Positions 1 through 12,084 are shown, counted from the first letter of the stretch. The stretch is 42,477 bases of DNA from Verrucomicrobiota bacterium (GCA_013820875.1 JACDHS010000031.1:1-42477); one strand, 5' to 3'. Made by a program: numbers and translations. The notes: a model not told the origin generated them from the sequence alone.

Positions 1-33
1 ATCCCGGCCTTGCCTGCAGCCGGTTGGTTATGC
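1..33 (-). other. attC site of cassette 6 (cut by window start)
   Basis: The R'' box GCATAAC (27-33, minus) is the complement of the first bases of this cassette (GTTATGC at 259-265). The following arm matches the corresponding part of the attC at 1105-1197 almost base for base. The R' half lies outside the window. The TAA stop of the cassette ORF is embedded in the R'' box. Confidence 0.85.
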
Positions 34-246
34 TGTCGCCATCTCATACGCAACAAAACCGTGCTCTCCTCCGCTGAACGTCCGTTCGCGACAGCGAACA
101 AACGAACCCGATGCGAACTGCCAATGCTCGTCTTCCGGTTGCCTGCCGATAATCCGAAACACACCCTCGCGCACCTGCTCCGCCTCCACGGGACGCCACA
201 CTTGGGTCCCTTCATCAACGAGCTCTATATAAATCGTGGTGCTCAT
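28..246 (-). CDS. Cassette 6: small conserved hypothetical protein (72 aa)
   Basis: A 72-residue acidic soluble protein with no signal peptide or membrane segment. It begins MSTTIYIELVDEGTQVWRP and has a GSFVRCRERTF segment near the middle. The start is supported by an AAGAGGT ribosome-binding site ending directly before the ATG, and by the cassette boundary 18 bases upstream. From memory, small proteins with an 'LxDEGTxVWRPVEA' opening are common as stand-alone hypotheticals in bacteria, but no function is known to me. It is the sole ORF of its cassette, and its stop codon lies inside the attC R'' box. Real gene: likely. Function: unknown. Confidence 0.8.
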   Translation of the reverse strand: MSTTIYIELVDEGTQVWRPVEAEQVREGVFRIIGRQPEDEHWQFASGSFVRCRERTFSGGEHGFVAYEMATA

Positions 247-258
247 ACCTCTTCCGCA

Positions 259-353
259 GCATAACGTTCCGCATCACTGACCCCGCGCCAGTGATCCTCA
301 AATTGAAACCACAGCGCTATCGCGGGGTTCGGTGCATGCGGTTTGTTCGACGG
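259..353 (-). other. attC site of cassette 5
   Basis: The R'' box CGTCGAAC (345-353) complements the start of the cassette (GTTCGACG at 693-700). The R' point is G265. The two arms (CCGCATGCACCGAACCCCGCG versus the complement of CGCGGGGTCAGTGATGCGG) form the imperfect palindrome with unpaired extra bases expected of attC. It differs at only three positions from the attC at 694-787. Confidence 0.92.
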
Positions 354-361
354 TCCTCGTG

Positions 362-685
362 TCATTTATCTGAATAGTCCAGTGAGGGTGCGAGCTTAGC
401 AATAACGTCATCCCAAGTCTTGCATGTGCCACACTCGTCGAGAAGCGCACCAATTTTCTGACGTATGGCGCTCCAATCAAACTCTCGAAACTCCAATGCC
501 GGCTGGTGCTCCGACTGCGACTTGCCAGTCGAACACGCGAAAAACTGGAACACCTCGTAACCACGGTGAAAGCGCTGAGAAACCGAGACCTGCATGAATA
601 CAGAAAAGTCACGAACATCATCTGGCTGGCCAGAAGATGGCTTATCCAAATCAGGACTCCAAATGTCGTCAATTTTCAAGCGCAT
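362..685 (-). CDS. Cassette 5: Imm8-like immunity protein
   Basis: The 107-residue product starts MRLKIDDIWSPDLDKP and continues with a segment reading F..FMQVSVSQ, then YEVFQFFACST. This order (basic strand, 'I.SPDL' motif, proline-rich acidic turn, 'F.F.VC' strand) matches what I recall of the immunity protein 8 (Imm8) family of polymorphic toxin systems. Such proteins bind and neutralise a cognate toxin in the cytoplasm. The ATG at 685 was chosen over the longer frame because the cassette begins at 699; the longer frame would run through the recombination junction. No toxin gene is next to it, so it would be an orphan immunity gene, a typical cassette cargo. The Imm8 assignment rests on motif memory, not on a profile search. 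Confidence 0.7.
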   Translation of the reverse strand: MRLKIDDIWSPDLDKPSSGQPDDVRDFSVFMQVSVSQRFHRGYEVFQFFACSTGKSQSEHQPALEFREFDWSAIRQKIGALLDECGTCKTWDDVIAKLAPSLDYSDK

Positions 686-693
686 GGCGAGCC

Positions 694-787
694 GTCGAAC
701 GTTCCGCATCACTGACCCCGCGCCAGTGATACTCGAATTGAAACCACAGCGCTATCGCGGGGTTCGGTGCATGCGGTTGGTTAGGCC
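694..787 (-). other. attC site of cassette 4
   Basis: The R'' box GGCCTAAC (780-787) is the exact complement of the cassette start (GTTAGGCC at 1104-1111). The R' point is G700. It is nearly identical to the attCs at 259-353 and 1445-1537. Confidence 0.93.
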
Positions 788-793
788 ACATAT

Positions 794-1087
794 TCATGAT
801 CTACTAAAATACCAAATCGAAACCCCTGCAATGCCAATCACTGCGAAAGTGGTCAAGAGTCCAACAAGCGTAGTCGCGTCCGCCGTCAAGTAAACCTGCT
901 GTCCTCGCAAATGGTAAAAACCGCCCCATTTGATTTTCTTTTTTTTCTTCTTCGGAATATCTCGCAACAACTGATCGCATTTCCAGCGACCAAACGAGAT
1001 GATTGGTACAACAATGGTTCCGACACCGTAAACCAGAGGGTGAACGATCATCTCAAACACAATCTCTCCGATGAAACTCGATGGCAT
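794..1087 (-). CDS. Cassette 4: small two-helix membrane protein
   Basis: A 97-residue protein starting MPSSFIGEIVFEMIV. Hydrophobic stretches at about residues 8-31 and 73-92 suggest two membrane helices. Between them is a strongly basic stretch with six consecutive lysines, then KWGGFYHLRG. The start at 1087 lies 23 bases inside the cassette boundary; the upstream in-frame ATG at 1147 would be in the neighbouring cassette's attC and is therefore not credible. The run of lysine codons creates a long T/C homopolymer-rich tract on the plus strand (about 930-952), which could be prone to slippage. Function unknown. Confidence 0.75.
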   Translation of the reverse strand: MPSSFIGEIVFEMIVHPLVYGVGTIVVPIISFGRWKCDQLLRDIPKKKKKKIKWGGFYHLRGQQVYLTADATTLVGLLTTFAVIGIAGVSIWYFSRS

Positions 1088-1104
1088 ACGGTGCGCGTGA
1101 TGTG

Positions 1105-1197
1105 GCCTAACGCCCCGGCTCAGGCAGGCCGGGCCAATGATGTTCAATTGTCAACCGAGACGCGATCCCGGCCTTGCCTGCAGCCGGCTTGTTCGCC
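1105..1197 (-). other. attC site of cassette 3 (second attC subfamily)
   Basis: The R'' box GCGAAC (1191-1197) complements the cassette start (GTTCGC at 1446-1451). The R' point is G1111. The arms, AAGCCGGCTGCAGGCAAGGC and the complement of GCCTGCCTGAGCCGGGGC, are a different sequence from the attCs at 259, 694 and 1445, but match the partial site at 1-33. Confidence 0.92.
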
Positions 1198-1222
1198 AAT
1201 AAGATCTCGATCTGCATACTCG

Positions 1223-1435
1223 CTATCGAAAAAGGAAAATAAGCGATCCAACACACGCCAAAACCAGCAGTGGCCCCAGCCAACGCAACGGGCGCTGGAA
1301 CTTCGGGTTCCACCGCAAACCTCCGACTATCTTTGGACCAACCGTTCCATATGCGAAGGCTATGCCCCACAGTCCGATGATCAAAAAGATGATCGAAGTG
1401 AGAATCTCAAAAACTTGGGCAAAGGCAATCATCAT
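1223..1435 (-). CDS. Cassette 3: small membrane protein (70 aa)
   Basis: A 70-residue protein made largely of two hydrophobic segments (about residues 9-30 and 51-69) joined by a loop that contains the segment GGLRWNPKFQRPLRW. Two ATGs lie in tandem (1435 and 1432); either could be used. The cassette boundary is 15 bases upstream. No catalytic motif is visible. Small two-helix membrane proteins are common integron cassette cargo, but no function can be assigned. Confidence 0.72.
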   Translation of the reverse strand: MMIAFAQVFEILTSIIFLIIGLWGIAFAYGTVGPKIVGGLRWNPKFQRPLRWLGPLLVLACVGSLIFLFR

Positions 1436-1444
1436 GCACTTGAT

Positions 1445-1537
1445 GGCGAACGTCCCGCATCACTGACCCCGCGCCAGTGATACTCGAATTGAAACCACAG
1501 CGCTATCGCGGGGTTCAGTGCATGCGGTTGGTTCTGC
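1445..1537 (-). other. attC site of cassette 2
   Basis: The R'' box GCAGAAC (1531-1537) would predict a cassette start GTTCTGC, but the cassette starts GTTATGC, one mismatch. The R' point is G1451. The site differs at two positions from the attC at 694-787. The mismatch may reflect a point mutation, or recombination of this attC with another cassette. Confidence 0.9.
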
Positions 1538-1553
1538 ATTGTGGGTGTTCACC

Positions 1554-1892
1554 TTATTCGTCTTGAGGGAAAATTTGAAGGATCTTCCCGTCGATACACC
1601 GCCCCGCCAATCTTCGACCTTTGAATGTACCTTCCCAGTGGTGCACAAGCGCTTCGCGCGGTACTGACTCAAACTCTTCGATCCACTTGGTGAGAAACGG
1701 AACCATCCGATTATTCTGGTCTCTCAGTTGACAACCACGTAAACGGCCACGAAGAATCGCAAGCTGATGGTCACGAGCGTAGAAGGGTTGCCCATGCGCA
1801 TCCGTGTCGACTCGACTCTGCTCAATCGTTAGATCGGCAACACTGTGGTAGCCCGCCGCCTCCAGTTTCTCAGAAAGCGCATCTGTGTTCAT
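1554..1892 (-). CDS. Cassette 2: hypothetical soluble protein (112 aa)
   Basis: The product begins MNTDALSEKLEAAGYHSVADL and has no membrane segment or signal peptide. It includes a charged stretch rich in arginine around residues 44-62 and ends KILQIFPQDE. I do not recognise the family. The start at 1892 lies 12 bases inside the cassette boundary (G1905/T1904), as expected for cassette genes with very short leaders. The ORF occupies most of its 454-bp cassette, and its stop is 16 bases before the R'' box. Confidence 0.72.
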   Translation of the reverse strand: MNTDALSEKLEAAGYHSVADLTIEQSRVDTDAHGQPFYARDHQLAILRGRLRGCQLRDQNNRMVPFLTKWIEEFESVPREALVHHWEGTFKGRRLAGRCIDGKILQIFPQDE

Positions 1893-1898
1893 GGATTC

Positions 1899-2025
1899 GC
1901 ATAACGTGCGAGGTCAGACACAGAGCCCGTGAGCGCCGCGCGGCCTGCAACGAGAACAATAGAAAACCGAAAGCCGTAAAACTGCAAGCGCGGGGCTCTG
2001 TTGTCTGCACCGATTTTGTTAGCCC
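1899..2025 (-). other. attC site of cassette 1 (long form)
   Basis: The R'' box GGGCTAAC (2018-2025) exactly complements the start of cassette 1 (GTTAGCCC at 2533-2540). The R' point is G1905. At about 120 bp it is longer than the other sites. The outer arms GTGCAGACAACAGAGCCCCG and the complement of CGGGCTCTGTGTCTGACC pair imperfectly around a long variable centre. The TAA stop of the cassette ORF sits in the R'' box. Confidence 0.9.
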
Positions 2026-2525
2026 TCTTTGCCCTCATAGTATGGTGGAAACAACTTGCCCGACGGCGGCTTGGGGAGTTGGCCGAGGCGCTGCAACTCC
2101 TCAACTTGGTGCCTGCGACAAAAGACCCCTAACGTAGACGCTCGCTCTTCACACCCTTCGGCGCGACACTTGTCCGAAGAGGGTGTGAAGGGCCGCAAAT
2201 GATAGTCAGCCATCATCGCGGTATAGATCATCATCGCCGCAGGCTGCTGATAGTGCTCACGCTGCCACTCCTCGGCAGTGATGGCGGGAACGCGGAAGAG
2301 ATACTCTTCATTTGCGAAATTCCACTCGCGTCCGGACTGCCACACCTCACCGCACAGCGGGCATCGGAATAGCGAAATCCCAAGCTCAACATCCTCATTA
2401 AGGATCTGTAGTCGCTTCTTGAGCGCCTTCGATTGCTTGATCCGCTTGGAGATAGCGTTCCTATCGAGCGTCAAGTGAGGATAGCTTGCACAATCGCATC
2501 CCTCGGATTTTGAAAACGGCCACAT
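2019..2525 (-). CDS. Cassette 1: hypothetical Cys-rich (zinc-binding?) protein
   Basis: A 168-residue product from MWPFSKSEGCDC. Cysteine pairs at CDCASY, a CPLCGEVW motif, and a C-terminal C..xGC...(x8).FCRRH pattern suggest one or two zinc-binding sites, with a helical C-terminal segment and a proline-rich end. The 177-residue frame starting at 2552 was rejected: the extra residues would be read from DNA outside the cassette, across the G2540/T2539 junction. The chosen ATG is 14 bases inside the cassette. It is the first (most recently inserted or platform-proximal) cassette. The family is not recognised. Confidence 0.72.
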   Translation of the reverse strand: MWPFSKSEGCDCASYPHLTLDRNAISKRIKQSKALKKRLQILNEDVELGISLFRCPLCGEVWQSGREWNFANEEYLFRVPAITAEEWQREHYQQPAAMMIYTAMMADYHLRPFTPSSDKCRAEGCEERASTLGVFCRRHQVEELQRLGQLPKPPSGKLFPPYYEGKEG

Positions 2526-2532
2526 GCTTCTT

Positions 2533-2552
2533 GGGCTAACCATATGATTCAC
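2533..2552 (-). other. Platform-side junction of the cassette array (attI-like)
   Basis: The minus strand reads ATATG-GTTAGCCC, and cassette 1 begins at the first T after the G (position 2539). No palindromic L'/L'' partner is visible in the next 100 bases to the right, so this is not an attC. It is where attI, or a secondary insertion site, must lie. Confidence 0.6.
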
Positions 2553-2997
2553 AGGTAGATTTGCCCTGATAACATGATATTAGACCGGGTTTTCGGGCGG
2601 GACTATCTGATTGCCTTAGGTGGGCGTCTGGGGCAAAAACCATTTGACTGAACCTTGAATTGTTACGAGGGAAAGTCAAGCCAACAGCGTGATCCAAGAC
2701 AGTCCGAAATTGCTATTCCAAATTCGCTCGAACGATGTTCATGAATTAAAACGATCTGCAAAAAACTGAGACATGCCATTCGACGAGCAAGGCCCGGGTA
2801 AACCGGGACGAGAAATCCTGAACTCTGTCAGTGCGACACAACTTTTCGCAACGGCTCCTCGTCATGGGATTGAGAGTTTCGTCCGGGAACGGAATCTTCT
2901 CCGAAAGATTCGTCTGCAGAAGGGTCAGCCCACCGAGCGCGGCAAGCAAAACGTCGAAACCTCTGCAAAATCGCTAAAAACGTTTCGCGGAATTGGC
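2553..2997. other. Gene-poor stretch right of the cassette array
   Basis: About 445 bases. No ORF with credible coding character, no integrase fragment and no RNA gene is recognised. The only longer frame (2773-3135, plus) reads into the 41-bp repeats and is not convincing. Confidence 0.5.
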
Positions 2998-3240
2998 TTT
3001 CTGATGTCAGAAAGTCCAAAATTTCCGGAGTTTTCCACTTTCTGGCGTCATAAATGCCGATATTTCCGGGGATTTCGACTTTCTGACGTCATAAAGCCCG
3101 ATATTTCCGGGGATTTCGATTTTCTGACGTCATAAAGCCCGATATTTTCGGAGTTTTCCAGTTTCTGACGTCATAAAGTCTAAAATTTCCGGAGTTTTGG
3201 CCTTTCTGACATCAAAGGTCATTCCGGGATTTCAAAATCG
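2998..3240. repeat. 41-bp tandem repeat array (six units) with TGACGTCA palindrome
   Basis: Units start at 2998, 3039, 3080, 3121, 3162 and 3203, a constant period of 41 bp; the last unit is degenerate. The core is TTTCTGACGTCATAAAG followed by a TTTCCGG(G/A)G block. TGACGTCA is a perfect 8-bp palindrome, present in three units and altered in the flanking ones. The period is not a multiple of three, so the array does not encode a peptide repeat. It lies upstream of the gene at 3528. Confidence 0.93.
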
Positions 3241-3527
3241 GCGCCAGCGAGCTATCGCCGGTTTCATAATGGCCACCCTCCAACCATCCTCAAAACGACG
3301 CTTCCGCTGACAAAAAAACGGTCGTTTTTGAAAATAAATTTCCGCCTAACCTGGCCGTTTTCCTGTAAGTGCCTGTCAGTCAACAAGAAGGGAAATAAAA
3401 AATAATTTACGAAAAAAAATTGGTCCGACACTAGGTGACGGAGTGGCTGTGAAATGATGGTCTCGTTCTTTTTAACAATTCCGTTAACAGGAACGAGTAA
3501 ACAAATAAAACGAAAGAGATAGTAAAC
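3241..3527 (+). promoter_or_regulatory. AT-rich leader with nested inverted repeat
   Basis: The region before the gene at 3528 is A/T-rich. At 3463-3500 a CTCGTTC / GAACGAG pair encloses an inner TTAAC-AATTCC-GTTAA pair, so a nested stem-loop or an operator is possible. The start codon follows at 3528 with a weak AGAGAT ribosome-binding site. Confidence 0.4.
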
Positions 3528-4442
3528 ATGAAAAATGACCTACAACTACCCATCCCTCGCATGCTGACGCTGGGCGAGTCGGTGGCAAACGGCTACGACC
3601 TCCATGGCGTGGCGATCGGTATCACCCGCAACACCGGCGCGTTGACCCGCGCGGATGTCGCGGCGGCGGAACTGGCTCGGGACATTTACGAAGTCGGCGC
3701 CCAGGCGGCGCGGGATCGGAACGGAGAACTCCAGGTGCTCAGCAAGGAGGCTTATGAATACGGGTTGCTCTCCCGCGACATCCTCAAGCCGATTCTCGGA
3801 AAGCGGTATTCGGCGGCTTGGAACCAGACGGGCCTGGTCGGGTCACTGAAAATTCCGAGCAACCACGAAGATCTGCAGGGATTAATGCAATCCATGCGGA
3901 CGTTCTTCACGAATAATGCGGCGTGGGAAGCGGCCACTCAGAATGTTACGGCGGCACGGGCGGAGGACTTGCGGTCCGGCCTTTCCAGCAAGCGCGCGGA
4001 AGTGCAGGCGGCGGCGGGGGAGAGGAAGACGCTGATGAACCTGCGCGATCAAAAGGTAACGGCCTTGCGTGATCGTCTGCGTCTTTTCATCCTGGAAGCG
4101 GGCGAAAAGATTGGTCCGTTGGATCCCCGGTGGGTTGCCTTTGGATTAAATATGCCGGGTGCCCGGGCCACTCCGGATGTCCCGCAGAATGTCAGGGCCA
4201 TTCTGATCGGTAATAACGCGCTCTCGGTGAAGTGGGACAAAGCGGCTCGCGCGGAGTATTACCGGGTCTGGGCGCGGGTGGTGGGTTCGCAGGAGGAGTT
4301 GGTGATCATGGGGAGTCCGGGGGACATCGACTTCACGATCGAAGGTTTGCCTTCGAACGCAACGGTGGAGATTGCGATCTCGGCGATCAATAACGGCGGC
4401 GAAAGTGCGCGGAGCACTGTGCTGGTGGTGTTGACGACGTAA
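3528..4442 (+). CDS. Fibronectin type III domain protein, function unknown
   Basis: 304 residues without a signal peptide or membrane helix. Residues 1-210 are mostly helical, with a charged segment around 150-180 that could form a coiled coil. Residues about 218-304 have the pattern of a fibronectin type III domain: 'P.NV.A', 'LSVKWDKAARAEYYRVW', 'IEGLPSNATVEIAISAINNGGES'. Such domains mediate protein or carbohydrate contacts. The N-terminal part is not recognised. The ATG at 3528 was kept because it follows an AGAGATAGTAAAC leader. It stands alone: a strong hairpin follows the stop, and the next gene belongs to a different functional group. Confidence 0.85.
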   Translation: MKNDLQLPIPRMLTLGESVANGYDLHGVAIGITRNTGALTRADVAAAELARDIYEVGAQAARDRNGELQVLSKEAYEYGLLSRDILKPILGKRYSAAWNQTGLVGSLKIPSNHEDLQGLMQSMRTFFTNNAAWEAATQNVTAARAEDLRSGLSSKRAEVQAAAGERKTLMNLRDQKVTALRDRLRLFILEAGEKIGPLDPRWVAFGLNMPGARATPDVPQNVRAILIGNNALSVKWDKAARAEYYRVWARVVGSQEELVIMGSPGDIDFTIEGLPSNATVEIAISAINNGGESARSTVLVVLTT

Positions 4443-4651: not shown

Positions 4652-5491
4652 ATGGCTTATACCGCTGAAATCAGTCGCGCCAATCCCAGTGCATTCATTT
4701 TCCTGATTGACCAATCCGGTTCCATGCTCGAACCGATCGCCGGCAGTGCCGAAGGAAAACGCAAGTGCGACAGTGTTTCCGATGCCATTAACCGTCTGCT
4801 GCATAATTTGATCATTAAATGTGCGCGCGGCGAAGGGGTGCGGAATTTCTATGATGTCTGCGTGATCGGCTACGGCGCGCAGGTGGTGCCCGGGTTCAGC
4901 GGCAAATTGGCAGGACGGGATCTGGTTCCAATCAGCGACATCGCCAATGCACCGGCCCGCGTCGAAGAACGCACCAGGCAGGTCGAGGATGGCCAGGGTG
5001 GAACCGTCACTCAGAAAGTTAAATTTCCGATCTGGTTTGAACCGGTGGCCAAAGGCACCACGCCGATGGGTCAGGCCTTGAGCATGGCGCATCATATTTT
5101 GGAAGGCTGGGTGGGGCGGCATCCGAATTCTTATCCGCCGATCGTCATCAACATCACCGATGGTGAAGCGACCGATTCCGGCCCGGCGCCGCAAGCGGAA
5201 GCGCTTTGCTCGCTCTGCACCAATGACGGTCCGGTGTTGTTGTTCAACTGTCACATCTCGACTAAACCGCTGGAACCGATTGTTTTTCCAGACAGCGACG
5301 ATGATTTGCCGGATTCCTTTGCGCGCACGCTTTACCATTCGTCGAGCCTCCTTCCAGATGGGTTACGCGATCTGGCGCGCGCCGAGAATCTCGATTTCGG
5401 CACTGAAACGCGCGGGTTTGCTTTTAATGCAGACCTTGTGGAATTGATTCGCTTCCTCGACATCGGCACCCGTGCCAGCAATCTGCGGTAA
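4652..5491 (+). CDS. von Willebrand A domain protein (TerY-like) of a VWA/PP2C/kinase triad
   Basis: 279 residues forming a single cytoplasmic VWA domain. The metal-ion-dependent adhesion site is intact: D20-Q-S22-G-S24, a threonine in KGTTPMG (136/137), and D170 in NITDGEATD. The product resembles TerY-type VWA proteins, which in the known TerY-phosphorylation triads occur with a PP2C phosphatase and a protein kinase; the next two genes are exactly these. It probably acts as a protein-binding scaffold or substrate of the pair. The ATG at 4652 follows a CGAACTGCAAAC leader with no clear ribosome-binding site. A 9-bp hairpin (5564-5584) lies in the 188-bp gap before the phosphatase. Confidence 0.88.
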   Translation: MAYTAEISRANPSAFIFLIDQSGSMLEPIAGSAEGKRKCDSVSDAINRLLHNLIIKCARGEGVRNFYDVCVIGYGAQVVPGFSGKLAGRDLVPISDIANAPARVEERTRQVEDGQGGTVTQKVKFPIWFEPVAKGTTPMGQALSMAHHILEGWVGRHPNSYPPIVINITDGEATDSGPAPQAEALCSLCTNDGPVLLFNCHISTKPLEPIVFPDSDDDLPDSFARTLYHSSSLLPDGLRDLARAENLDFGTETRGFAFNADLVELIRFLDIGTRASNLR

Positions 5492-5563
5492 AAACTTCGT
5501 GAGAAAGCACGCATCTACGCGAATAGACCGGACGCGAGGGGCGGGCTGGTTTTGCATAATGCG

Positions 5564-5584
5564 CTGCCAGCGTCCCGCTGGCAG
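5564..5584. other. Hairpin between VWA and PP2C genes
   Basis: CTGCCAGCG and CGCTGGCAG pair perfectly around a three-base loop. There is no T-run. It could set the relative expression of the upstream and downstream genes. Confidence 0.4.
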
Positions 5585-5679
5585 GGTTTCCCAGTTGGAC
5601 ATTGATCTCGATAATGTAAGCGATTTCATCCGGCAGTTCCCTTCTGCCGACGAGACGCCGACAGCACCCTAAACACAAC

Positions 5680-6450
5680 ATGCAACCTTCTGCCAAAGCG
5701 TTCTGGGTTCCGAAAGCTGGCAACAGCGTGGAGGAATACGAAGACGCCTCAGCGCATTCGGACCATCGGTTTGCCATTGCGGATGGCGCCACGGAATCTT
5801 CCTTTTCCGAACGCTGGGCGCAAGAGCTCGTCAAGCAGTTCGTGGTGCAGCCGCCGGAACACATTCGCAATTCCAAAATCCCGCTGAAAGAATGGCTTGA
5901 TCCGCTTCAGAAACAATGGCACGCCAGCATTCCATGGCAGCGACTCCCCTGGTATGCAGAAGAAAAAGCGCGCAACGGTGCGTTTACATCTTTTCTCGGA
6001 GTTGAAATAACTCCCGCGCCTTCCCGCTTCCGGTTGTTCGATTTGTTCCGCCGCCGCAAAGGCACGCAGTGGCACGCCTTTACCGTGGGGGACAGTTGTT
6101 TCTTTCAAGTGCGGAATGATGCTGTGTTGAAATCGTTTCCATTCGATAAATCGGAGCAATTCAATAACCGACCTCTTTTGATCTCCAGTAATCCGAGTCG
6201 CAATAAATCTGTATGGAAGCATATAAAGCAGACAGAAGGCGCCTGCGATGTTGGCGATCTGTTTTTACTCATGACAGATGCGCTCGCGCTCTGGTTCATG
6301 AAGGAAAATGAAGCCGGACGGAAGCCATGGAAAACGCTCCTGGAAATCAATACCGATAAAGCGTTTGCGAACTTTGTCGAAACCATGCGCAAGAGTTCAG
6401 CCCTGCGCAATGACGACACCACTTTGCTGATCTGCCACTGGAAAGATTGA
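5680..6450 (+). CDS. PP2C-family serine/threonine phosphatase
   Basis: 256 residues. The PP2C metal-binding motifs are visible in order: E21-D22 (EEYEDASAHS), D35-G36 (FAIADGATES), G137-D138 (FTVGDSCFF), T199-D200 (LLMTDALALW) and D245-D246 (RNDDTTLLI). This supports a Mn/Mg-dependent phosphatase that would remove phosphates placed by the kinase encoded next. No membrane segment, so it is cytoplasmic. The kinase gene starts three bases after the stop, so the two are almost certainly translated from one message. The PP2C/kinase/VWA set matches the TerY-phosphorylation triad described for bacteria. Confidence 0.93.
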   Translation: MQPSAKAFWVPKAGNSVEEYEDASAHSDHRFAIADGATESSFSERWAQELVKQFVVQPPEHIRNSKIPLKEWLDPLQKQWHASIPWQRLPWYAEEKARNGAFTSFLGVEITPAPSRFRLFDLFRRRKGTQWHAFTVGDSCFFQVRNDAVLKSFPFDKSEQFNNRPLLISSNPSRNKSVWKHIKQTEGACDVGDLFLLMTDALALWFMKENEAGRKPWKTLLEINTDKAFANFVETMRKSSALRNDDTTLLICHWKD

Positions 6451-6453
6451 CGT

Positions 6454-8745
6454 ATGAATTGGCCCTCTCACACCGATTACCAGGACGCGATGCAGAATCC
6501 GTCCATGTGCTTTCACGATCCCGAGTTGAAGTCCGGCGAAGCCAAGACCGACATGCTGGGTTTGCCCCGCGTGATGTCCGGAAATTTCGCCAGTGTTTAC
6601 GAATTGCACTGCGGTGACCACCGTTGGGCCATTCGTTGTTTTGTTCGGCAGGTTCCCGGTCAGCAGGGTCGCTATGCCCGTTTGAGCCAGCATTTGAACA
6701 GCCTCACTTTGCCGTGTCTCGTGGGCTTCGACTACATTTTGAAAGGTCTCCTGGTCAAGGGCGAAGGCTATCCTGTTGTAAAGATGCAATGGGTCGAAGG
6801 CATGCCATTGAACACCTGGGTGGAAGAGCATTTAACCAATCCGGAGGCTCTCAAGAAACTCGCCGCAGGCTGGCGCGCCATGATGAAAGACCTTGCGCAA
6901 CACAAACTGGCGCATGGCGATTTGCAGCATGGCAACGTGATGGTCACGCCGGAAGATGAACTGCGCCTGGTGGATTATGACGGCATGTACGCGCCAGTGT
7001 TCGGTCGTGGACGCGCACCCGAGCTTGGCCATATCAACTTTCAACACCCACGCCGCACCGCTGATTTTTACCAGGAGGATCTCGATAATTTTTCCGCCGT
7101 GGTGATCTACACGAGTTTGCTCGCGTTGGCATCCGAGCCGGAGCTTTGGGACAAGTATTACACGGTTGATAACCTGGTGTTCACCTCTGCGGATTTCAAA
7201 AATCCGCTGAATTCACCACTCTTTGAGCGATTGCACCAAAGCAAAGATCCACAGGTGCAACAACTCGCCAAATTGCTGGAAAAATGCTGCCTCGCCCCGG
7301 TGGAAAATGTGCCGGACTTTTTGGTGGCGATGGAGGCCCTGGACCAGGGCACGTTGGAATGTCTGCCAATGAAAACGCCGGCTCCGGCAGCGAGCATCTC
7401 GTTTTCACGGCCAGCCCCGGAAACAACCGGCGCAACAGGCAGCGGACTCCCCGCTTCCCGTCCGGCCCCGGCAGCCGCTGGGAAAAAAGCGTCGAGATCC
7501 TCCTACGAACAGATGCCAGATGTGGCCACGCAATCGCTGAAACAGAGTCGTCCAGCCCCACAGGGGAGTCGCTCTGCGTATGAGGTTCCCGAAGAAAAGA
7601 GCGCCGGAATTCCCTGGTGGGCCTGGGGTGTTGTGGGACTTCTCGTTGCGGTGATCGGCGCTTTGATCATTATTGTGAATCGTCCGCAAGATCCCATGGA
7701 ATCCAACCACGTTGAACGGATTCGTCCTGCGGCTCGTTCTTCATCTCGCGTGGAAGTTCCTCCTGCCGAACTGGAGGAGCCAATCCAATCTGTTCAGGCA
7801 TCCACTCCTGTGGCCGCACGCGATTTGCCCAAAGCCCGCGGGAGCAGCTTGAAAATTATTCCACTCGGCTCCATGAAAGGGCATTCGGCCAGCGTCGATG
7901 TGCTGACGTTTTCTCCGGATGGCAAATGGCTGGCCAGCGGCAGCGCTGATAAAAGCATCAAAATTTGGGACGCCCAATCCGGCCAGCCGAAACGAACGCT
8001 GAGTGCCCAGGGTGAAACCATGGTTGCACTGAGATTTTTGTCGGAAGGCAAAATCGTTGCCGGAGTGGGAGCCGATAATTCGATTCGTTTCTGGGATGCG
8101 ACAACGGGCGATCTGCAGAAGAAAATAGACGACTATAAAGATAACCTGTTTGCAGTGGCGCTTTCGCGAGATGGGCAGACGATTGCCACAGGGCTTTCGA
8201 GTGATCGCAAAGCCGTTCGCCTGGTGGATATCTTTCTCGGATCGGTGAAGCGTTCGTTTCCCAATCACGAGAGCTGGGTGCGGTCTGTGAATTTTTCCCG
8301 CAACGGGAAGATGTTCGTCAGTGTTTGTCACGATGACAGCGTGAACATCTGGGACATTTCCAGCGGACAGAAAATCCAGTCGTTCTCTGTTCCGGGGAAT
8401 AACATCGAAACACCCGTCTTCTCTGCGGACAATCGTTTCCTCGCCACCAGTAGCGAAGGCGTGGAGATGAAGATTTGGGATGTGCAAACCGGGCGGATCG
8501 TTCACACGCTCTCGGGACATGCTGGAGAGATCAAAACGTGTGCCTTCTCTTCAGATGGCAAATGGCTCGCCACAGGCAGTGCGGATCGCACGATCAAAAT
8601 CTGGGATGTCGCCTCTGGCACAGAAAAGCAAACTTTGTCGGGGCACACAGACGCTATCAACGCACTGACTTTTTCCGGGAACAACACTCTCCTGGTCAGC
8701 GGCAGCGCAGATCAAACGATCAAGTTGTGGGAAATCCAACGCTGA
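6454..8745 (+). CDS. Membrane-spanning protein kinase fused to a seven-bladed WD40 propeller
   Basis: 763 residues. Residues about 40-295 form a protein-kinase domain: a loop at SGNFASVYE, WAIRCF in the place of the usual VAIK strand (arginine instead of lysine), the catalytic loop H154-GDLQHG-N161 and a metal-binding VDYDG at 173-177. The HGDLQ/DYDG pattern is typical of the kinase of VWA/PP2C triads. Residues 305-385 are a Pro/Ala/Ser-rich linker, 387-409 (WWAWGVVGLLVAVIGALII) one membrane helix, and about 476-763 seven WD repeats ending in IKIWD-type strands, which should close one propeller. With the kinase inside, the propeller would be periplasmic. This suggests a receptor-type kinase opposed by the adjacent phosphatase. 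Signal and target are unknown. Confidence 0.9.
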   Translation: MNWPSHTDYQDAMQNPSMCFHDPELKSGEAKTDMLGLPRVMSGNFASVYELHCGDHRWAIRCFVRQVPGQQGRYARLSQHLNSLTLPCLVGFDYILKGLLVKGEGYPVVKMQWVEGMPLNTWVEEHLTNPEALKKLAAGWRAMMKDLAQHKLAHGDLQHGNVMVTPEDELRLVDYDGMYAPVFGRGRAPELGHINFQHPRRTADFYQEDLDNFSAVVIYTSLLALASEPELWDKYYTVDNLVFTSADFKNPLNSPLFERLHQSKDPQVQQLAKLLEKCCLAPVENVPDFLVAMEALDQGTLECLPMKTPAPAASISFSRPAPETTGATGSGLPASRPAPAAAGKKASRSSYEQMPDVATQSLKQSRPAPQGSRSAYEVPEEKSAGIPWWAWGVVGLLVAVIGALIIIVNRPQDPMESNHVERIRPAARSSSRVEVPPAELEEPIQSVQASTPVAARDLPKARGSSLKIIPLGSMKGHSASVDVLTFSPDGKWLASGSADKSIKIWDAQSGQPKRTLSAQGETMVALRFLSEGKIVAGVGADNSIRFWDATTGDLQKKIDDYKDNLFAVALSRDGQTIATGLSSDRKAVRLVDIFLGSVKRSFPNHESWVRSVNFSRNGKMFVSVCHDDSVNIWDISSGQKIQSFSVPGNNIETPVFSADNRFLATSSEGVEMKIWDVQTGRIVHTLSGHAGEIKTCAFSSDGKWLATGSADRTIKIWDVASGTEKQTLSGHTDAINALTFSGNNTLLVSGSADQTIKLWEIQR

Positions 8746-11765: not shown

Positions 11766-11824
11766 CCTGGCCTCATCCTTCTCTTTGACGGAGAAGTTGA
11801 TCGCGGTGAAGCGATCAGGACGAG

Positions 11825-11970
11825 CACGATAAAACCGGTATCCTGACTTTCGGGCCTGACCTCGCTCCCGCCTTCCCGTTCTTTACGAACAGTGGCATTG
11901 GGAGTTTGTATCCCGTCACAGTGGCGCAACCGTTCCGGAGTTTAACCGGATTCCCTGGCATTTAATCGTG
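11825..11970 (-). ncRNA. Cobalamin (B12) riboswitch aptamer
   Basis: The minus strand shows the conserved elements in order: a closing P1 stem CACGATTAAA / TTTTATCGTG, CAGGGAATCCGGT, CCGGAACGGTTGCGCCACTGT, ATGCCACTG, GGGAAGGCGGGAGCGAGGTC, CCCGAAAGTCAGGA and the B12-box end TACCGG. The order and sequence match the cobalamin riboswitch consensus as I know it. The first gene downstream is the secreted protein at 10602-11588, after a 236-nt leader with further hairpins. No B12 transport or synthesis gene is nearby. Confidence 0.92.
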
Positions 11971-12084
11971 GTGAACGGATTTTTTCCGTTCTTTTCGTTT
12001 TCAAAGAGCAGGTGACAAATAGAGCAACCACGAAAATTTCCAAGTTTTAAATTCATCTTAGCAGTTCCAAAATCGTCGGCAACA

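Follow-up and report, generated by a model that had tools for sequence, protein, structure and literature searches.

A cassette array that appears to have lost its integrase gene and kept attI, among probably multiplied integron platforms in a Verrucomicrobiota genome

Introduction

Integrons are usually described as one integrase gene (intI) and one attI site feeding one array. The DNA analyzed here, referred to as the window, is the whole of contig C18 (G000:C18:1-42477; 42,477 bases), and its start had been read in an earlier note as an integron cassette array without an integrase. The question raised by this locus is how such an array came to stand without intI. Clusters of attC sites without intI are termed CALIN, and off-target insertion, loss of intI, and rearrangement have been proposed as their origins (PMC8618304); CALIN counts are given in PMC9024848, and the Verrucomicrobiota are among the phyla listed with integrons (PMC8618304).

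The source genome G000 is a draft MAG of 5.70 Mb in 239 contigs, 98.99% complete and 2.2% contaminated. In kinship searches, G000 fell into the order that contains genome G069, and G069 and a named Verrucomicrobia MAG (QHPA01000078) have identical integrases. These relatives therefore assign the window to the phylum Verrucomicrobiota, in agreement with the Verrucomicrobia-like chromosome suspected earlier.

Results

Gene cassettes and attC sites of the window

The region 1-2540 of the window contains six gene cassettes, with ORFs all located on the minus strand and split by attC sites (Table 1). Five attC sites are complete, and the sixth is cut by the contig end; since base 1 of the window sits inside this site, the array runs on past the contig end. 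The sites have the standard attC layout: the RYYYAAC-like R'' box and a spacer lead into two stems, the first containing an unpaired G and the second lying past a 2-base bulge, and the site closes with a GTTRRRY-like R' box.

Table 1. Features at the array end of the window.
Feature	Position	Strand	Details
attC 0	1-33	-	Site cut by contig end; cmsearch 20.6 bits, cut off 3'
attC 0 R'' box	27-33	-	GCATAAC; complements start of cassette at 264
Cassette 6 (outermost seen)	1-264	-	ORF 28-246, 72 aa; no Pfam match; G^TT boundary 265|264
attC 1	259-351	-	111.1 bits; in model training set
Cassette 5	265-699	-	ORF 362-712, 116 aa; Imm8 immunity-protein family PF15586, E 5.7e-8, above cut-off
attC 2	694-786	-	110.0 bits
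Cassette 4	700-1110	-	ORF 794-1087, 97 aa; no Pfam match
attC 3	1105-1197	-	100.2 bits; sequence divergent, fold same; DNA fold z -3.4
Cassette 3	1111-1450	-	ORF 1223-1435, 70 aa; no Pfam match
attC 4	1445-1537	-	110.6 bits; sole window site with R'' not matching cassette start
Cassette 2	1451-1904	-	ORF 1554-1892, 112 aa; no Pfam match
attC 5	1899-2025	-	Long type, of attI-proximal cassette; 23.9 bits; outside training set
Cassette 1 (attI-proximal)	1905-2539	-	ORF 2019-2552 as listed; no Pfam match
attI core	2538-2600	+	Crossover 2539|2540; 80-86% identity to sequence upstream of intact intI, Desulfobacterota
Remainder of attI-side repeat, family A unit	2601-2732	+	195-bp repeat from crossover, many copies
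Scar at expected intI place	2733-2880	.	Without homology to intI
intI 3' flank	2880-3259	+	83% to sequence directly after intI stop codon on C237

A covariance model, which had been suggested as a check on the sites, was trained on four window attCs and one from contig C69. It recovered every site in the window, a result that is partly circular for the four training sites and not circular for the site at 1899-2025 and the contig-end fragment, neither of which was used in training. The model gave at least 79 matches at E≤1 in its own genome, of which at least ~76 are credible; they lie on some 35 contigs, on the strand expected from the neighboring attI. In 72 matched sequences, 95.1% of the stem cells pair (mean of 69.8% in shuffles, with 0 of 500 as high; 32-36% in a control with the partner slid), and changes on both sides occur in 19 of 21 pairs compared to 13.8 in shuffles, values that are biased in favor of the fold because the structure guided the alignment, which also contains a small number of matches on the reverse strand, and that serve as support and not as independent proof. 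The six small ORFs separated by imperfect palindromes, as first described, are confirmed. The single-strand DNA fold z-scores of individual window sites were modest (-1.1 to -3.4), and no attC was reported for the window by Rfam at gathering thresholds.

Contigs C27 (L155) and C217 (L154) carry a second type of attC, marked by long runs of A7 and T7, with the pattern CTAAC-AAAAAAA-GGAATG...CATTCC-TTTTTTT-GTTRRRY. Only a truncated form of it terminates the distal junction common to arrays that is described below.

Cassette boundaries, contents and mobility

With insertion at G^TT, the R'' box must complement the bases at which its own cassette begins, despite the intervening sequence. In the window, this complementarity was confirmed for five of the six cassettes, as claimed in the earlier note (exact over at least 4 variable bases; five pairings were computed and the one at the contig end was read from the sequence). 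The R'' box of attC 5, GGGCTAAC, matches TTAGCCC at 2533-2539. Genome-wide, 33 of the 53 testable cassettes agree at each of the four variable bases, compared to a mean of 5.8 and a maximum of 14 in 5000 shuffled pairings. The longest ORF lies in the canonical direction in 55 of 62 cassettes examined. For cassette 1, a start inside the cassette, at ~2523, is more likely than the listed one at 2552.

One whole cassette of ~437 bp is present with 98.6% identity in the arrays of C220 and C69, which belong to different platforms; its neighbors differ, and it is cut exactly at G^TT at both ends. At 17 platforms with an array side, the first cassettes share nothing beyond the attC, though the attIs are up to 100% identical, and attI copies identical over 88-146 bp carry different first cassettes. 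These patterns and the R''/cassette-start pairing indicate that cassettes are indeed mobile in the G000 genome.

Most of the 56 cassette proteins scanned had no Pfam match, and the few families matched include DUF1877 (three proteins), Imm8 (window 362-712), SUKH, and DUF3885, among others. PADLOC gave a single weak model match among the cassette proteins. Because of this lone match and the large share of proteins without a Pfam family, we do not claim a role in defence. Several cassette proteins are of immunity type (Imm8, SUKH), and no toxin was seen alongside these or DUF1877.

The attI site and the loss of intI

The array ends at 2539|2540, and the repeat at 2538-2732 starts exactly at this crossover. 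In Desulfobacterota and other phyla, many intact intI genes are preceded at 56-210 bp by a same-strand counterpart of the attI. Since the first ~60 bases of the window repeat match the sequence upstream of intact intI, they represent a true attI. The other side of the missing gene was identified by means of contig C237, where a fragment encodes the last 29 residues of IntI (...QIYTHLLSKPGLGVRSPLD) and the sequence directly after its stop codon aligns at ~83% with window positions 2880-3259. As the window keeps both attI, from the 5' side of intI, and the sequence from its 3' side, intI would have been lost by deletion at 2733-2880, a reading drawn from the order of the pieces.

No intI was found in the 42-kb window, and its platform side, which the earlier note had likewise described as free of intI, consists of attI, then the scar, and then the intI 3' flank. 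With both the attC sites and the attI recovered, the reading as a cassette array without an integrase stands. The note had left the choice between a CALIN and a relic; both descriptions hold, and judged from its sequence, the array is a CALIN with attI intact, made by the loss of intI, and not an off-target cluster.

Tandem repeats of 41 bp around an 18-19-bp palindrome were observed inside the intI 3' flank (window ~2996-3220). Repeats with 41-bp units also occur at C237:1199-1583 and in the right flanks of C20, C9, C156, C200, C69, and C220. They contain three unrelated palindromes, CTTTCTGACGTCATAAAG, CTCCAAAATGTTTTGGAG, and CTCGGTTACGTTTACCGAG, all adjoining integron platforms, and at least one palindromic 41-bp repeat family occurs elsewhere in the genome too. 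On C237 (L015, 1-1800), the IntI C-terminal fragment and the 41-bp repeats adjoin an apparent RecA/ImuA-like SOS gene.

Integrase fragments in the genome

A search of genome G000 with TIGR02249 returned fragments only, namely three N-terminal stubs and one C-terminal stub. The N-terminal stub of 72 residues occurs on C69, C56, and C220; the three copies are 95-97% identical at the DNA level, break off at one and the same codon, and continue into a common sequence. The four tyrosine recombinases of the genome were considered as IntI candidates and rejected; the two intact recombinases that resemble IntI score as XerC/XerD type. A search for an intI acting in trans, as proposed in the earlier note, was thus carried out, and no intact gene was found among the genome matches listed. 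An assembly gap in the 239-contig draft may contain an intact intI.

Copies of the platform in the genome

Searches by sequence and by pattern recovered the attI again and again, and the attI sequence model gave at least 21 matches in its own genome. At least eight attI loci are clearly separate, located on C20, C9, C237, C220, and C21, and at three positions of C69 (near 1.5, 40.8, and 89.5 kb); these attIs are internal to long contigs, and the sequence differs on both sides. At least 10 different right flanks of attI were distinguished. The window appears to be one of about 20 integrase-less attI platforms in the genome, some of which, on contigs that break off within attI, may be strain variants of a single locus.

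The platforms fall into three families, distinguished by the sequence after attI. In family A, attI is followed by a ~330-bp unit that is found only with attI; in family B, attI passes at base 151 into a dispersed repeat of ~560 bp, which also occurs alone; and in family C, attI is accompanied by the intI stub of 72 residues and by repeats of 41 bp. A common distal junction was identified in at least nine arrays, with each of the three families represented; it is a long-type attC without R' fused to a sequence termed D, beyond which the further-out sequence differs between arrays. We rejected sequence D as a mobile cassette because its copies carry the same attC without R' box, and a shared dead end therefore fits better. 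Sequence D was not found at C20, C9, C237, or C69b. The ends of the platform units are shared but ragged on both sides. No terminal repeats, transposase, or empty sites were identified around the platforms, and a non-systematic look gave no target-site duplications. Recombination between the dispersed repeats that flank the platforms on either side is a conjectural route of spread.

attI, attC and IntI in relatives

Complete IntI was found in 23 of the 78 genomes of the order, several of which have attCs in the canonical adjoining position, and attCs of the window's type were found in 41 of the 78. The attI was matched six times in G001 (same family) and seven times in G012 (another family of the same order); among the other genomes scanned, 54 gave no match and G005 a single weak one. 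Most attIs of G001 and G012 have attCs on the correct side and correctly oriented; intI was detected next to none of them. A scan of genome contigs for the attI pattern, with own and near-own records left out, gave no match.

On contig C655 of G001 (L133, 2530-3326), two tandem attIs flank a VOC/glyoxalase-like gene without attC, forming an attI-bounded cassette. On contig C120 of G012 (L174, 2229-3512), an IntI with an N-terminal extension has LGL in place of the LGH motif and lacks the usual catalytic histidine; the seven attI copies of this genome lie elsewhere in it.

Discussion

It is highly probable, in our assessment, that a sedentary chromosomal integron is represented at the start of the window by its attI-proximal part, that intI was deleted from it while attI and the array were kept, and that its platforms multiplied within the genome. 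The common distal junction, combined with differing cassettes, makes it simplest that a whole integron with its dead end was copied and that the cassettes were then turned over; the absence of sequence D at four platforms leaves this account incomplete. The ancestor, an integron made up of attI, an array, and a dead distal end, would have multiplied within the genome, after which IntI would have inserted and shuffled cassettes at the copies, partly in trans, by recombining attCs, as folded bottom strands, into attI. In the known copies, intI would have been truncated before the multiplication (families B and C) or alongside it. Unless IntI is supplied by an unseen source, the system has probably come to a complete or near-complete standstill.

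A less likely idea is that of a distributed integron, in which integrase-less attI-array repeats have spread and are filled and shuffled, now or recently, by IntI in trans at ~20 docking sites. That such a system is still active, with all attI copies served in trans by an intact IntI that is missing from the assembly or sits on a plasmid outside the bin, we regard as unlikely. It would account for the different first cassettes at identical attIs and for the exact-ended cassette common to two platforms, and intact IntI is common in the same order; but the matches listed contain only IntI fragments in an assembly of 98.99% completeness, and the nearest full recombinases are of XerC/XerD type.

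Strains with different arrays at one attI might instead have been merged in the metagenome bin, an explanation that we consider improbable. The contamination of 2.2% and the number of different right flanks speak against such a mixture, as do the three attIs of C69, which are 39 and 49 kb apart on a single contig, the internal attIs of C20, C9, C237, C220, and C21 with both sides different, and the several attIs in G001 and G012 as well. A mixture would nevertheless agree with array contigs whose end (C68, C149, C155) or start (C137, C90, C193) falls within the attI repeat, and with the right flanks that the family B copies on C20, C200, and C156 have in common up to the contig ends. An ordinary CALIN, formed by a foreign IntI inserting cassettes off-target (attG), is very improbable: there is no intI nearby and the route is a known one (PMC8618304), but the cassettes sit at a conserved attI, with the intI 3' flank beyond it, and not at a random site, so that the attI match largely refutes it. 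Chance palindromes among ordinary small genes, which the modest fold z-scores might suggest, are refuted by the covariation, the R''/start pairing, the exact-ended common cassette, and the attI match, and their probability is negligible.

The integron proposed here agrees with sedentary chromosomal integrons in its attI, its tandem single-ORF cassettes, and its folded attCs with R''/R' boxes, as well as in attCs that are near-identical within the genome and an attI of the type found upstream of Desulfobacterota intI; it differs in having no intact intI at the platforms examined and ~20 attI copies instead of one. Like a CALIN (PMC9024848, PMC8618304), the window has at least two attCs and no intI nearby (six attCs in 42 kb), and loss of intI is a proposed origin of CALIN, whereas here attI is recognizably kept and the cluster belongs to a multiplied platform family. 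An early survey reported about a third of intI genes as pseudogenes, many by intragenomic duplication (Nemergut 2008, PMC2426708). Truncated intI and intragenomic duplication are likewise seen here, but the comparison there is between a functional and a dead copy, whereas here there are only stubs and the attI-array part is repeated ~20 times. Cassettes of the Delta-attI type, with attI in the attC position as in the attI-VOC gene-attI unit of G001, have been described in mobile class 1/2 integrons and not in dispersed chromosomal platforms; efficient excision has been reported for attI-bounded cassettes of class 1 integrons (PMC12901181).

We found no report of attI in ~20 dispersed copies in the open-access literature, and the arrangement of integrase-less attI arrays in such numbers appears new to it. 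With ~20 attI arrays without intI in this genome and fewer in two relatives, one of another family, a concrete route for the origin of CALIN is given, and attI can multiply apart from intI. To our knowledge, genome surveys rarely look for attI, and this phylum is hardly covered by integron studies. The system also makes testable whether one integrase serves many attIs in trans, and it adds a mostly uncharacterized cassette pool with a few immunity-type families.

Other features of the window

The ORF at 3528-4442 encodes a ~300-aa protein with a C-terminal fn3-like domain, which belongs to a paralogous family with at least 50 matches in this genome and at least 81 in G001. A gene of this type lies beside attI in both the window and G001; it was dropped as evidence of an orthologous position, given a family of ~50-80 copies per genome. 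The region 4652-8745 contains a row of genes encoding a VWA domain, a PP2C-type phosphatase, and a WD40 protein with a kinase-like N-terminal part, possibly a phosphorylation-signalling cluster, with the kinase-like part read from sequence. The only Rfam match at gathering thresholds in the window was a cobalamin riboswitch at 11816-11980 on the minus strand (86 bits).
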